Shown in pieces: positions 8,925-18,274 of a stretch of 55,800 nucleotides of DNA. The notes beneath the pieces were generated by a model. That model did no database searches and was not told the DNA's origin. It saw only the letters and a program-made list of their open reading frames with translations. Location: assembly GCA_025358575.1 (NCBI GenBank), contig JANYJA010000119.1:1-55800 (forward strand), written 5' to 3'. The stretch's first letter is position 1. Each line of letters opens with the position of its first letter. The position numbers and the translations under genes were made by a program. Source of the stretch: Terriglobia bacterium. Lineage in GTDB: Bacteria > Acidobacteriota > Terriglobia > Bryobacterales > Bryobacteraceae.

Positions 8925-9464
8925 GTGCCGCTGACAACCGACCCGCGCAGCTTGCAGGTCGCGGGCACCGAGGCCGCGCTGGTCCGAGCCGCGCAGGCAG
9001 GCGACCGCGGGGCTTTCGGGACGCTCTATGGGCGATTCGCGCGCATGATCCACGGAATCCTGCTCGCCTACGTATCTTATACCGATGCAGAGGATCTTTT
9101 GCAGGACGTTTTCGTGCGCGCCATGGAACAATTACCGAGGTTGCGGGAGCCGGCAGCGTTCGGCGGCTGGTTAGCGTCGGTAGCCCGCCGTAGGGCGTTG
9201 GAACATCATCGGCGCATGCGCCCCCAGGCCGGTCTGCCGGCTGAAATTCCGGGTGGGGCAAGACCGGACGGCGAAGCGTTCGAGGTGCTCGCAATCATCC
9301 AGCGCCTTCCAGAAAGCTATCGCGAGACGCTGGTACTGCGCCTGGTAGAAGGGATGACGGGCCCGGAGATTGCGGAGCGCACGGGGCTGACACACCAATC
9401 GGTTCGGGTGAATCTTTGCCGTGGAATGAAACTCCTTCGGGAAGCAATTGGGGCGAAACAATGA
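8925..9464 (+). CDS. RNA polymerase sigma factor, ECF subfamily
   Basis: The 179-residue protein has sigma region 2 (AQAGDRGAFGTLYGRFARM, DAEDLLQDVFVRAM) at about 25-75. Region 4 lies at about 125-175, with LPESYRETLVLRLVEGMTGPEIAERTGL and the helix-turn-helix. It directs RNA polymerase to a small regulon. The start is GTG. Its stop overlaps the next ATG (ATGA), so it is coupled to the FecR-like membrane protein, which is the likely regulator of its activity. No TonB receptor gene is adjacent, unlike the classical FecI/FecR arrangement. Confidence 0.92.
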   Translation: MPLTTDPRSLQVAGTEAALVRAAQAGDRGAFGTLYGRFARMIHGILLAYVSYTDAEDLLQDVFVRAMEQLPRLREPAAFGGWLASVARRRALEHHRRMRPQAGLPAEIPGGARPDGEAFEVLAIIQRLPESYRETLVLRLVEGMTGPEIAERTGLTHQSVRVNLCRGMKLLREAIGAKQ

Positions 9465-10381
9465 ACGATGAATATCTCTGGAATCGAACCGGCGAACCGG
9501 ACGCCGAAACGGTCCGGCTGGAACAACTGCTCGGGCAGTTGAAATACAGCGGGGCGATGAGGCCGCCGCGCAAAATAAGTTCGTATTGGCGGCTTGCGGC
9601 GGCGGCTATTCTCGTCGTGGGATTAGCCACCGTTCCTCTGTTATGGCGCGCCCCACTCACGCGCTGGCAACTGCAGGGCGGGCGTCGGATGCGCGCTGGA
9701 CAGACAATCGAAACGGGCAGTAGTTATAGGGTGACGATCCGGTCGGACCAAACCGGGGAAGTCACAATCGATCCCGGATCACGGCTGCGTCTGGTTGCGG
9801 CGAGCGATCGCGAACAACGCTTCGATCTCCAGCGCGGCACTATCCACGCCTTTATCTGGGCACCTCCAGGCCGCTTCGTTGTGGATACGCCCTCTTCGAA
9901 GACGATCGACCTCGGATGCCGCTACACGCTACGGGTGTCGAAAGATGGGAATGGGCTGCTCACGGTTGAACTGGGTTGGGTAGCGTTTGAACGGAACCAG
10001 GTTGAGTCGTTTATACCGGCTGGCGCGGCGTGCGTGACCAGGCCAGAAAAGGGACCCGGCATCCCTTATTTCAGCGACGCGCCCGGAGCGCTCACGAATG
10101 CTCTGGCGCGGTTCGATACGTCAGCTGATGGCGGCGCGCTCGACGCCGCGATTGCCTCGGCCCGGCAGCGCGACGCTCTGACTTTGTGGCATCTGATGGT
10201 TCGGACGCATGGCGATGAGCGAGCAAGAGTGTTTGACCGCTTCGCGTCGCTGGTGAGTCTGCCGCGCGAGGCAACGCGCGAAGCGGTTCTGCGCGGCGAT
10301 GGAAAAGCGATTAACGCGGCGTGGAATGCGCTGGATCTCGGAAATACCGACTGGTGGAGGGAGTGGAAGCACCAGTGGTAG
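9461..10381 (+). CDS. FecR domain-containing membrane protein
   Basis: The 306-residue protein has a short cytoplasmic N-terminus (about 1-43) and one membrane span (YWRLAAAAILVVGLATVPLLW). A periplasmic FecR domain follows: GQTIETGSSYRVTI, GEVTIDPGSRLRLV, FDLQRGTIHAFIWAPPGRFVVDTP and LGCRYTLRV. A helical C-terminal extension of about 110 residues comes after it. FecR-like proteins relay an envelope signal to a partner ECF sigma. The start ATG overlaps the sigma stop by 4 bases, which decides it over the longer frame from 9416. The C-terminal extension is longer than in simple FecR proteins. Confidence 0.88.
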   Translation: MNDEYLWNRTGEPDAETVRLEQLLGQLKYSGAMRPPRKISSYWRLAAAAILVVGLATVPLLWRAPLTRWQLQGGRRMRAGQTIETGSSYRVTIRSDQTGEVTIDPGSRLRLVAASDREQRFDLQRGTIHAFIWAPPGRFVVDTPSSKTIDLGCRYTLRVSKDGNGLLTVELGWVAFERNQVESFIPAGAACVTRPEKGPGIPYFSDAPGALTNALARFDTSADGGALDAAIASARQRDALTLWHLMVRTHGDERARVFDRFASLVSLPREATREAVLRGDGKAINAAWNALDLGNTDWWREWKHQW

Positions 10382-15181: not shown

Positions 15182-15257
15182 TCATTTTTATGGTTTGAAG
15201 TCATATATTCGGCCTCCCCAAAGCGACTAATAGATGCAACATCAAAAGGAGGCTATT

Positions 15258-15692
15258 TTGTTCTCTCGATTCCTCATGCCGTTCCTGGCGGGAGCGGTCC
15301 TGTTTGCCCAGGGCCCATCCCCCAATCCGCAACCGCCTGACGTGAAAGTCTTTCTGAATCTCTCGGACTCGCAAGTTCAAAGTTTGGTTCAGATTCAACA
15401 GCAAAAAGGGCAGGCGCTGCAGCCGGTGGTGCAACAAGCCGCCCAGACCCAGCAGAAACTTCAGCAAATCCTGGCAGCGCCGAATCCGGACCCTGCCACC
15501 GTCGGACAGTTGGTGATCGCCATAGCGGCCCTTGGGCAGCAGATTCAGCAGATCGCCGCCAGCTTCCAGGTGCAGACGTTCAATCTTCTGCAGGACGATC
15601 AGAAGGAGAAGCTGCCGCCTCTCCAGTTAGCTCTCGTGTTGCATTCCGCCGCCCTCCAAGCAGCGACCCTGGGACTTCTGAATGCGCCATGA
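15258..15692 (+). CDS. Spy/CpxP-like periplasmic helical protein
   Basis: The mature protein is about 125 residues after a signal peptide (FLMPFLAGAVLFAQ). It is glutamine-rich and helical, with LSDSQVQSLVQIQQQKGQ recalling the LTxxQ motif of Spy/CpxP/CnrX proteins. AAGGAG lies 6 bases before a TTG at 15258, so I prefer that start to ATG 15234. It is the first of four genes, followed by an ECF sigma, a single-span protein and a second LTxxQ protein. A role in envelope stress or metal sensing is inference. Confidence 0.7.
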   Translation: MFSRFLMPFLAGAVLFAQGPSPNPQPPDVKVFLNLSDSQVQSLVQIQQQKGQALQPVVQQAAQTQQKLQQILAAPNPDPATVGQLVIAIAALGQQIQQIAASFQVQTFNLLQDDQKEKLPPLQLALVLHSAALQAATLGLLNAP

Positions 15693-15713
15693 TGAAAGCA
15701 GCCTACTCCGCTC

Positions 15714-16268
15714 ATGCTCAGCGTAGCTGCCCAGCCGGTCGCCGCTCATCACGAACTGACTAAATTGTCCGAGGTCGGTGCTGTGACGCTCGACGACGCT
15801 AGGCTGCGTGAAGCGCTGGAAGCACATCACGTCGAAAGCTACGGATGGACACTGAGCTGCTGCCGGCGTCGGAGTCACGAAGCCGAGAACGTGCTTCAAC
15901 TCGTGTATGTAAAGGTGCTCAGCGGAAGAGCTGTTTTCGATGGAAAGTCCAGTTTTAAGACGTGGCTGTTTGCGGTGATCCGCAAGACCGCTGCCAATGA
16001 ACACAGAATGGAACTATTGCGGCGGCTGCGCCTGAGCCAAGTTCCCAAGGCACTCAATGGGAAACCTTCCCGTGACCAGCACGGCGTCGAAATAAGGCTA
16101 AAGGAGGCTTTAGGAAAGCTCCCCGCACGGCAGCGGGAGGTGCTGCAACTCGTCTTCTATCACGATCTTTCTATTGTGGAGGCCGCCAAGGTGATGGGCG
16201 TGGGAATTGGCTCCGCGCGAACTCATTATGAACGCGGGAAAAAACAAATGCGGCGGAGGCTTGCATGA
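15714..16268 (+). CDS. RNA polymerase sigma factor, ECF-like
   Basis: The 184-residue protein has a short region 2 (HEAENVLQLVYVKVL, FKTWLFAVIRKTAANEHR). Region 4 is LGKLPARQREVLQLVFYHDLSIVEAAKVMGV, with a helix-turn-helix ending GSARTHYERGKKQMRRRL. Region 2 is unusual, with CCRRR in place of the usual acidic helix. A GTG at 15783 with GAGG upstream is an alternative start that gives a more usual N-terminus. The stop overlaps the ATG of the next gene (ATGA), so the pair is coupled. Confidence 0.85.
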   Translation: MLSVAAQPVAAHHELTKLSEVGAVTLDDARLREALEAHHVESYGWTLSCCRRRSHEAENVLQLVYVKVLSGRAVFDGKSSFKTWLFAVIRKTAANEHRMELLRRLRLSQVPKALNGKPSRDQHGVEIRLKEALGKLPARQREVLQLVFYHDLSIVEAAKVMGVGIGSARTHYERGKKQMRRRLA

Positions 16269-16612
16269 TCTCACCGGAAGACAGCCGTCTGAGGACGCGC
16301 TTTGAGACCCTCCGCGAAGAGGACCGGCGAGCCGCCCCGCCATTTGGCCGGACCGCAGCCGCCGCAGCTTCCTTATCGCGCCGGGGTCACTCATTGAGGA
16401 TCGCTCTTGCCGCGATGCCGATTCTTGCCCTCGCTGTGATGCTTGCGGTGCGAACCCACCGCTCAACGGAAGCAGTCCCAAGCGAACTCGCGGTTTGGTC
16501 TTCGCCGACCGCGTTTCTTCTGGAAACGCCCGGCACACAACTTCTGAATCAGACACCAAAATTCGGACACCCGCTGATGAATGCTCGATCAGCCCAGGAT
16601 TGGTCCAAATGA
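16265..16612 (+). CDS. Small single-span membrane protein, candidate anti-sigma factor
   Basis: The 115-residue protein has a charged cytoplasmic N-terminus of about 45 residues rich in Arg and Glu. One membrane span (LRIALAAMPILALAVMLAV) and a periplasmic tail of about 50 residues follow. No zinc-finger motif is present. Size, topology and ATGA coupling on both sides (sigma upstream, LTxxQ protein downstream) match the position of CnrY-type anti-sigma factors. No sequence family is recognised, so the role rests on context. Confidence 0.65.
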   Translation: MISPEDSRLRTRFETLREEDRRAAPPFGRTAAAAASLSRRGHSLRIALAAMPILALAVMLAVRTHRSTEAVPSELAVWSSPTAFLLETPGTQLLNQTPKFGHPLMNARSAQDWSK

Positions 16613-17022
16613 AACCGATGATTCTGACATTGCTGCTTTTCAGCTGGCTCGCCGCGCAGCGACCTCCTGAAGATCCCTTGCGCGATATTCTGTTTCCGCC
16701 CGAGATCGTCATACAGCACCAGCAGGCCGTGGGACTCAGCGACGATCAGAAGAATCGTCTCAAGGTTCAGGTTCGCCAAGCGCAGCTTAAATTCACCGAG
16801 CTCCAATGGACCCTGCAGGACGAAATGGAACACCTGGTCTCTCTGCTCAAACAATCCAAGGTGGATGAGAAACAAGCTGGTTTGCAGTTGGATAAGGTTT
16901 TGGCCGCGGAGCATGAAATCAAGCGCGCCCAGCTCATGCTTCTCATCGGCATCAAAAACAACCTCACACCGGCTCAGCAGGAACAGCTTCGCGAGTTGGT
17001 TGAAAAGTCGAAGGCGCGATAA
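16609..17022 (+). CDS. LTxxQ-motif periplasmic protein (CnrX/Spy-like)
   Basis: The 137-residue protein has a signal peptide (MILTLLLFSWLAAQ), then a long helical body with VGLSDDQKNRLKVQVRQAQ. A classical LTPAQQEQLREL lies near the C-terminus. This two-motif layout is typical of the Spy/CpxP/CnrX/ZraP family, periplasmic chaperones or metal sensors. The ATG overlaps the previous stop (ATGA), so the earlier open frame from 16495 is not used. By position it would be the sensor of the sigma/anti-sigma pair. Confidence 0.8.
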   Translation: MKPMILTLLLFSWLAAQRPPEDPLRDILFPPEIVIQHQQAVGLSDDQKNRLKVQVRQAQLKFTELQWTLQDEMEHLVSLLKQSKVDEKQAGLQLDKVLAAEHEIKRAQLMLLIGIKNNLTPAQQEQLRELVEKSKAR

Positions 17023-17089: not shown

Positions 17090-18274
17090 ATGTTGGGAAG
17101 CGGGTACTTAAATCCATGGGCCGGCGCGAACAGCACGCGCGAAGTGTCGCGGGCCATCTCCCTCAGCCGTCGTGATTTCCTGCGCACAGCGACAGGCGCG
17201 GTTGCGGGCAGCGCGCTGTTCGGTTCGATGGCGGGCCGGGGCATGGCACTGCCGCGATCGAAGAAAGCTATCGTGGTGACATTCGGCGGAGGCGCTCGCG
17301 ACGATGAGACATTCGCCCTCGATGGTCAGGAGAACATCCCGCATCTGTTGCACGACCTGATGCCGCGCGCGACGTTCTTCAGCCAAGTGGTAAATCGCGG
17401 GATCCTGGGGCACTACGTGGCGACAGCGAGCCTGGCTACGGGCGTCTATGAGAGCTTCAACAACTTCGCCGCGGTGCCGCCCGATTTTCCCACCGTGTTC
17501 GAATACTTTCGTAAAGACCTGAAGCGGCCGGCGAGTGACGCGTGGGTGATTGCGCCGAGTAATGGCTTTAACCGAATTGGCGAGAGCGGACACCGGTCGT
17601 ATGGCGCGGGGATGGGCGCGGGCGTGATTCTTCCGAAGCGGCTTTTGGCGGCGGCGCTGCCAGGCGGGGGCGGAGGCGGTTACGATCATCTGCTGCGGGA
17701 CAACTACGAATCGGCGGTCTACAGTCCGGCGGTGGGCGGGCATGAGCTGGAAATGCAGCAACTCGCGGAAGTTTTAAAGTTATCGGTGAACGATTTCGCG
17801 GCGCACGCCAAGAGCTTGGCGAGCCCGGACGAACTTTCGGTTTACATCGCGCGGCAGTTGATGCGGCATCTGGCGCCGAGCCTGCTTTGGATTACGCTGC
17901 ACGATATAGACATTGCGCATTCGGGAACGTTCTCGCTGTATCTGGATGGAATTAAGCGTTCGGACCGTCTGTGCGGGGAGTTGTGGAGCGCGATTGAAAA
18001 TGACCCGGAGTATGCCGGTAAGACGACGATGTTCATCCTGCCTGATTTTGGACGGGACTCGGACATAAGCGCGGGCGGCAATGGGTTCCAGCATCACCGC
18101 ACCGGTGACCCGGTGTCGCGCACCACGTGGATGATGGCGATGGGGCCAGGAGTGCGGCAGAACGTGGTGGTGGAGCGGCCGGTGGAATCGACGGATCTGG
18201 TGCCAACGCTAGGATCGCTGTTGGGTTTTAATCCTCATCTATCCACGGGCAAGCCGTTGACTGAGGTGCTGTAA
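17090..18274 (+). CDS. Tat-exported alkaline-phosphatase-superfamily-like protein
   Basis: The 394-residue protein has a twin-arginine signal (LSRRDFLRTATGAVAGSALFG). The body looks like the DUF1501/sulfatase part of the alkaline phosphatase fold. AIVVTFGGGARDDE is near the start, GILGHYVATASLATG in the middle, and FILPDFGRDSD and TDLVPTLGSLLGF near the end. The canonical nucleophile is not obvious, so activity is uncertain. The start could also be GTG 17144, which puts the RR motif nearer the N-terminus. An unknown protein gene begins 3 bases after its stop. Confidence 0.75.
   Translation: MLGSGYLNPWAGANSTREVSRAISLSRRDFLRTATGAVAGSALFGSMAGRGMALPRSKKAIVVTFGGGARDDETFALDGQENIPHLLHDLMPRATFFSQVVNRGILGHYVATASLATGVYESFNNFAAVPPDFPTVFEYFRKDLKRPASDAWVIAPSNGFNRIGESGHRSYGAGMGAGVILPKRLLAAALPGGGGGGYDHLLRDNYESAVYSPAVGGHELEMQQLAEVLKLSVNDFAAHAKSLASPDELSVYIARQLMRHLAPSLLWITLHDIDIAHSGTFSLYLDGIKRSDRLCGELWSAIENDPEYAGKTTMFILPDFGRDSDISAGGNGFQHHRTGDPVSRTTWMMAMGPGVRQNVVVERPVESTDLVPTLGSLLGFNPHLSTGKPLTEVL

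Follow-up and report, generated by a model that had tools for sequence, protein, structure and literature searches.

A candidate chaperone-coupled ECF sigma switch encoded by a four-gene locus of a Terriglobia bacterium

INTRODUCTION

The stretch of DNA that we analyzed (the window, 55,800 nucleotides of a Terriglobia bacterium contig) carries a gene for an ECF sigma factor that is flanked by a secreted LTxxQ-like protein (LTxxQ-A) on one side, and by a 115-residue single-span membrane protein and a periplasmic LTxxQ protein (LTxxQ-B) on the other. What could such a locus sense, and how could a periplasmic protein act on a sigma factor across the membrane? A sequence-only reading of the window proposed a CnrYXH-like envelope module.

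The combination of a sigma, an anti-sigma and an LTxxQ-type partner is of a kind already known from the Cnr and CirYZ-Spy systems. The Cnr genes are arranged in the order Y-X-H and the metal ligands of CnrX are His-rich; anti-sigma factors of the CnrY type (class II) embrace sigma2 and sigma4 through a short, two-helix cytoplasmic domain. Spy and CpxP belong to two-component systems, and CpxP is the feedback partner of a membrane sensor. In the RseA/RseB/sigmaE system, a periplasmic partner protein is bound to the anti-sigma; the fold of RseB differs from the LTxxQ-B type. Site-1/site-2-type proteases are often unlinked to the anti-sigma genes.

RESULTS

Organization of the locus

All four genes are on the forward strand, in the order LTxxQ-A, ECF sigma, single-span protein and LTxxQ-B (Table 1); re-checking of the reading frames showed that the order, strand and coordinates originally proposed were all correct. 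The last three genes are indeed linked by ATGA overlaps, which are 4 bp each at both the sigma/membrane protein and the membrane protein/LTxxQ-B junctions. LTxxQ-A does not overlap the sigma gene; the gap is 21 bp, or 90 bp with the later sigma start described below. The first ATG of the listed LTxxQ-A reading frame is at 15234, 2 bases past the -10 element. TTG 15258, the start chosen before, is likelier, since AAAAGGAGG lies in front of it and a signal-peptide-like sequence begins there.

Table 1. Features of the four-gene locus (window positions)
Feature	Position	Strand	Basis or remark
Predicted promoter	15200-15231	+	GTCATAT 15200-15206, 17 nt, CGACTAAT 15224-15231
LTxxQ-A, secreted LTxxQ/Metal_resist protein	15258-15692	+	PF13801 above cut-off; AAAAGGAGG 5' of TTG
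ECF sigma factor	15714-16268	+	Sigma70_r2 and r4_2 above cut-off; 37 relatives
Short single-span anti-sigma candidate, 115 aa	16265-16612	+	Relative adjoins sigma in 37/37 other loci
Cytoplasmic N-terminal segment, residues 6-27	16280-16345	+	LFxELRxxDxxxAPxF; proposed sigma-binding helices
Transmembrane span, residues ~44-62	16394-16450	+	Kyte-Doolittle 19-residue maximum 2.4 at residue 44
Periplasmic tail motif WSSPTAFLL, residues 78-86	16496-16522	+	Proposed LTxxQ-B docking site
LTxxQ-B, 137 aa, Spy/CpxP/CnrX-like, signal-peptide-like start	16609-17022	+	Profile, AF2, Foldseek

Because the window copy of the sigma-family promoter precedes LTxxQ-A, all four genes are probably transcribed together as a single autoregulated operon. 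A sigma-70 consensus scan found no promoter at the operon. Terminator-like sites were fewer than in shuffled sequences; the single one lies within the anti-sigma gene. Downstream, a gene for a Tat-signal protein (17090-18274, forward strand) starts 67 bp past LTxxQ-B, and transcription of the operon may continue into it; Pfam gave just a weak signal match for its product, and a 403-residue protein without a family comes after it. Elsewhere in the window, a second ECF sigma gene (Sigma70_r2, 1.3e-14) overlaps that of a FecR-domain protein (PF04773, 6.7e-7) at 8925-10381 on the forward strand, and the two form an ordinary FecIR-like pair.

The sigma factor and its family

The window sigma matches PF04542, PF08281 and TIGR02937 with 31.8, 50.8 and 68.2 bits, respectively, all exceeding the cut-offs, and no region 3 family is found among its Pfam and NCBIfam matches. 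With regions 2 and 4 recognized, it is classified as an ECF sigma factor. Its region 2 had been called unusual; that description is not supported, as region 2 exceeds the Pfam cut-off and is thus recognizable. In alignment to its relatives (A1, 33 of 38 sigmas), the true start is probably near GTG 15783. Region 2 contains two neighboring cysteines at sigma residues 49-50 of A1; all 33 aligned sigmas have Cys49, and at least 90% of 17 sigmas have Cys50.

A search of genome contigs with the window sigma returned 50 loci. We define the sigma family as 35 of these plus two from relatives (tblastn E of 1e-25 or better); the 37 members are 38-57% identical to the window sigma, and the remaining 15 loci match ECF-like sigmas more weakly (22-37%). 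Judged by record titles and tree labels, the family includes Acidobacteriota, Verrucomicrobiota, Lentisphaerota, Planctomycetota, Armatimonadota, Gemmatimonadota, Nitrospirota, Myxococcota and Bacteroidota, and since the arrangement recurs in these other phyla, it is not due to chance. The sequence-only reading depended on the 115-residue protein being conserved beside the sigma. It is: profile search of 4322 stretches placed a relative next to the sigma at every one of the 37 loci besides the window, so the objection falls. LTxxQ-B relatives were found in 29 of the 37 by the same search; in L014 the sole LTxxQ-B sits upstream of the sigma.

The family is patchy. Among 101 near genomes, it occurs in two besides the source genome, and in Bacteroidota it occurs in 5 of 296. 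Within the phylum, the sigma is present in 35 of 396 genomes (own included), LTxxQ-B in 30 and both in 28. All these genome counts may be low, since just the first candidates of each genome were scored. In all 28 genomes with both, at least one sigma/LTxxQ-B pair is less than 1 kb apart. The two genomes with LTxxQ-B only (G275 and G376) have it at a contig edge (loci L179 and L101); at L101, in G376, an anti-sigma is still in view. Of the seven sigma-only genomes, all but G384 are accounted for: the contig ends before the LTxxQ-B position in G197 and G408, the position is masked in G254, G360 and G424 carry VWA fusions, and G316 is of the rhodanese type (see below). Judged by its distribution, LTxxQ-B is a dedicated partner of the sigma/anti-sigma pair.

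LTxxQ-A is distributed differently. It had been counted as a member of the module, a place it does not keep: an additional LTxxQ gene ahead of the sigma was observed in just one of the 37 other loci (L019). In the window, the sigma-type promoter has LTxxQ-A as its first gene; LTxxQ-A would be a chaperone-like output rather than a core part of the module.

The short membrane protein and its extracytoplasmic tail

The 115-residue protein, an anti-sigma candidate, was suggested to have no known family, and this stands: Pfam returned nothing above a cut-off for it and NCBIfam nothing at E<=1, and its family profile found no family among PDB sequences. Fourteen Pfam families, each matched by one member of the 26 aligned anti-sigmas, were taken as chance. 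The cytoplasmic part consists of ~45 residues ahead of the span. As seen in alignment A3 (26 of 38 anti-sigmas, with OmpA fusions excluded), the shared layout is LFxELRxxDxxxAPxF, the span, a linker of widely varying length and the tail; F13 and D20 are conserved in 24 rows, P25 in 23 and F27 in 21.

The tail carries a conserved extracytoplasmic motif, about W-x-[SAP]-P-[TS]-x-x-L-L, whose Trp is present in 26/26 rows of A3. In several Bacteroidota the motif is located at or beside the extreme C-terminus. A wide form of the tail pattern, which was widened after the sequences were inspected and which 4.8% of shuffled tails match, is carried by 63 of the 64 loci that have LTxxQ-B in the fetched stretch and by 2 of the 12 that do not; the other 10 lack the tail pattern as well. 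The narrower pattern missed five LTxxQ-B loci (L079, L082, L087, L106 and L115). L009 has the tail motif without an adjacent LTxxQ-B, and its genome has LTxxQ-B ~7 kb off on the same contig; the match in L084 is a stray one inside the span of a VWA fusion. Excluded from these counts were L026 and L073, which contain masked letters, L060 and L086, which are at contig ends, L078, which gave no hit for the anti-sigma, and repeated entries with the same anti-sigma start. The Fisher p of 7e-10 for the co-occurrence is not a true probability, because the loci are related. Four later Bacteroidota loci (L182-L185), which entered no model, all have both the tail motif and LTxxQ-B; they are not wholly independent, being from the same phylum as L030, L031 and L034.

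We modeled the anti-sigma and LTxxQ-B of L016 by AF2 as one chain, with the stop codon read through (pTM 0.53). Residues 81-90, which include most of the tail motif, have a pLDDT of 77, compared to 52 in the block before and 58, 47 and 41 in the blocks after. This pattern weakly suggests that the tail docks on LTxxQ-B. In the two-protein alignment used (A6), 5 of 24 rows span both proteins. The model also contains two anti-sigma helices before the span (residues 3-24 and 28-38).

LTxxQ-B resembles Spy, CpxP and CnrX

LTxxQ-A matches Metal_resist (PF13801) with 36.0 bits, above the Pfam cut-off of 29.2, and LTxxQ-B scores 24.7 bits, below it; all 27 rows of the LTxxQ-B family alignment (A2) match the family at E<=0.1, the best at 1.9e-11. 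The two LTxxQ proteins are akin, as had been assumed, although distantly: a profile built without LTxxQ-A gives it 17.3 bits. A profile search with CnrX/Spy families had been proposed, and its outcome was divided. Against PDB sequences, profile A2 found Spy (2.2e-6) and CpxP (2.8e-4), whereas CnrX was absent from its matches.

The AF2 model of LTxxQ-B (pLDDT 91.7) is helical and contains two long helices. In the Foldseek search CnrX ranked first (E 0.051, TM 0.60/0.72), followed by CpxP, Spy and NccX, and no match reached E<=0.001; the titles of the PDB entries matched name E63 and M123 of CnrX. Since the VIA-align Z of 9-11 is below the 13 advised for helical models, it was not used to choose among ZraP, CpxP, CnrX and Spy. 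Taken together, LTxxQ-B is predicted to be of Spy/CpxP/CnrX-like fold and is a candidate chaperone. Metal sensing by LTxxQ-B was also looked for, and lost support. None of the columns of the 27 aligned domains has an invariant His or Cys; His occupies any one column in at most 14 of the 27, and five domains contain no His at all.

Promoter motif and candidate regulon

Upstream of the sigma genes we spotted, by eye, a bipartite motif, TGTC[AC]TAT-N16-CGACTAAT. Its loose pattern is present in 51 of 63 sigma upstream regions (mean 0.045 and maximum 2 in shuffles) and the strict, exact pattern in 17 of 63 (0 in shuffles); both were counted in the set of regions from which the pattern was derived. 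The window and L019 are among the 12 regions missed by the loose pattern, because an LTxxQ gene lies between promoter and sigma; L019 has a GTCATAT element ahead of its LTxxQ gene. The second half of the motif varies in other lineages, for example GCACTCAT and CCACTCAT, and the Bacteroidota loci L182-L185 likewise keep the first half and vary the second.

In the 4.77-Mb source genome the window site is the only match, and the reversed-pattern control also gives one. Across 162 genomes of another class, the exact pattern matched 22 sites and the reversed pattern 5. Of the 22, 13 precede a sigma operon, four of these being assigned by the coordinates of the sigma matches; four precede a DUF1800 gene (L132, L164, L165 and L166, in four genomes), two an LTxxQ gene (L131 and L167) and three nothing recognized. 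Pfam confirmed DUF1800 in the two cases tested (L132 and L164) and LTXXQ in both L131 and L167. DUF1800, a family of unknown function, is thus a candidate regulon link to the sigma promoter. Exact matches were also found in 8 of 20 chosen sigma-bearing genomes (10 sites versus 2 reversed) and in 14 of another choice of 45 (21 versus 11); part of the shortfall is due to the variable -10 half.

One genome, G315, contains seven exact sites (L136, L147 and L149-L153), two of identical sequence, which lie ahead of the sigma operon and of genes that, judged by eye, encode a kinase, a small basic secreted protein and other products; its regulon is perhaps enlarged. Inverted promoter-like elements occur upstream of the sigma in L028 (4893) and L072 (1387) on the minus strand, and also in L006 and L010, and the pattern matches the second half only in L028 and L072. 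In part of the genomes, these elements point to a divergently transcribed gene under the same control.

Possible exchange of the sensor part

In some loci, the anti-sigma ends in another domain. Five (L021, L022, L029, L032 and L035) have an OmpA-domain C-terminus (Pfam, 1.9e-26 for L032 and 7e-21 for L035), and the genomes of these five fusions gave no LTxxQ-B match at E<=0.001. The genome of L004 has one weak match, 3.4e-5. Four others (L070, L071, L080 and L084) end in a YfbK-type VWA region, assigned by eye for L070 and L071; Pfam YfbK_C matches L169 and L170, which extend the L080 and L084 loci, at 1.4e-63 and 5.4e-66, respectively. The OmpA type groups as a single clade (98/89) in the sigma tree, for which the bootstrap had not settled, and two changes are needed to account for the VWA type, so independent losses are few.

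The anti-sigma of L069/L172 ends in CVEC, and a rhodanese gene is adjacent (PF00581, 1.4e-9). In L172 (3138-4112) the rhodanese is a secreted one and no LTxxQ-B was seen; a redox- or sulfur-sensing variant is possible.

DISCUSSION

Comparison with known systems

The CnrYXH-like layout proposed at first holds for the kinds of parts. Like CnrYXH/NccYXH of Cupriavidus metallidurans, the locus combines an ECF sigma, a short single-span anti-sigma candidate and a periplasmic partner of LTxxQ-like fold, and the AF2 model of LTxxQ-B resembles CnrX, its first Foldseek match, and NccX. Kinship with Cnr in particular does not follow. The profiles matched neither CnrX nor CnrY (the latter was not among the A3 matches to PDB sequences at E<=10, and the short CnrY peptide may lie outside that set), CnrH was outscored by several other ECF structures as a match to the window sigma, and the conserved metal site of CnrX has no counterpart in the 27 aligned LTxxQ-B domains. 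Different from Cnr, the gene order here is sigma-anti-partner, and the window family has a promoter motif of its own. The two helices predicted before the span in the L016 model may be CnrY-like, CnrY being described with two such helices in the accessible text of two reports (PMC7406223, PMC4598750).

Among solved structures, the sequence profile of LTxxQ-B is nearest to Spy and CpxP of Escherichia coli; the neighbor of LTxxQ-B is an anti-sigma candidate, however, in place of their two-component systems. The experimental parallel for a sigma/anti-sigma/Spy-like system would be CirY/CirZ-Spy of Phocaeicola vulgatus, likened here by layout, an operon of ECF sigma, anti-sigma and Spy-like protein. 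As far as the available part of that 2026 report goes, cirY, cirZ and spy are up 143-, 132- and 155-fold in colitis, deletion of the anti-sigma gene cirZ places cirY and the co-transcribed spy among the most raised genes, and neither a tail motif nor a promoter is named (PMC13114119). RseA is a class I anti-sigma according to the accessible portion of another report (PMC7406223), and our searches of the window proteins saw no sequence match to RseA/RseB/sigmaE. The promoter, tail motif and sensor exchange of the family are undescribed in the accessible text of the literature searched, which was mostly non-subscription and did not include the main ECF classification.

Proposed mechanism and alternatives

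The reading that we favor, with somewhat better than even confidence, is a Spy/CpxP-type chaperone-coupled sigma switch in an autoregulated four-gene operon, in which the anti-sigma tail docks on the chaperone. At rest, the N-terminal helices of the membrane protein would hold the sigma, as its gene position and what is known of such pairs suggest, and LTxxQ-B would dock on the outer tail, W-S-S-P-T-A-F-L-L, and keep the membrane protein inhibiting; that LTxxQ-B reads the tail we infer from the co-occurrence of the two. By analogy with CpxP and Spy, envelope damage would titrate LTxxQ-B away: occupied by other things, it would leave the tail free, the sigma would be released, and transcription would start from the predicted promoter. 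Newly made LTxxQ-B would reset the switch, with LTxxQ-A as extra chaperone-like output.

Three other explanations were weighed. The least improbable, though still unlikely, is a proteolysis-type switch like RseA/RseB, in which LTxxQ-B shields the tail from a site-1 protease and stress unshields it, so that the anti-sigma is cut. A short, conserved, extracytoplasmic tail that lies at or next to the C-terminus in several Bacteroidota would suit such cleavage. Nothing decisive speaks against it: no protease gene was recognized in the locus stretches inspected, where the annotation of neighbors was unsystematic, and the headpiece is retained without the tail in the OmpA and VWA fusions.

We give a lower chance, roughly one in eight in our judgment put loosely, to both LTxxQ proteins being outputs only, on-demand chaperones, with the anti-sigma tail sensing something else. 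The promoter sites before stand-alone LTxxQ genes of relatives (L131 and L167) fit this explanation, as does the rise of co-transcribed spy on cirZ deletion reported, in the part available, for P. vulgatus (PMC13114119). However, the tail motif is largely present where LTxxQ-B is and absent where it is not, which a pure output would not need, and L009 retains both despite their ~7 kb separation.

A CnrYXH-style metal sensor, in which metal-bound LTxxQ-B pulls the anti-sigma off the sigma, is the least probable: the same kinds of parts, the first Foldseek rank of CnrX and the Metal_resist matches of both LTxxQ proteins agree with it, but the family has no invariant His or Cys column, its profile picks Spy/CpxP rather than CnrX, and no metal-efflux family was seen among the window proteins scanned with Pfam, which were part of the reading frames.

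Beyond the chaperone-coupled switch itself, we tentatively consider a broader reading, which we hold somewhat more doubtful than not: one sigma family, with its short anti-sigma headpiece and its promoter code, would be a plug-in platform for interchangeable envelope sensors. The sensors in view would be a Spy-like protein reading a client-mimic tail, a fused OmpA domain, a fused YfbK/VWA region, and a CxxC tail with a secreted rhodanese next to it. The chaperone of the window type would then be a co-anti-sigma, and free chaperone would be measured directly.

Implications

If the chaperone-coupled switch is real, it would provide an envelope stress response for phyla in which little such biology is known, Acidobacteriota and Verrucomicrobiota among them. 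The promoter motif would make much of the regulon readable from DNA, and the nine-residue tail would make the sensing step testable via single mutations. A Spy-type chaperone would act on an anti-sigma as its direct gauge, and the family would offer an example of sensor swapping within one sigma family.
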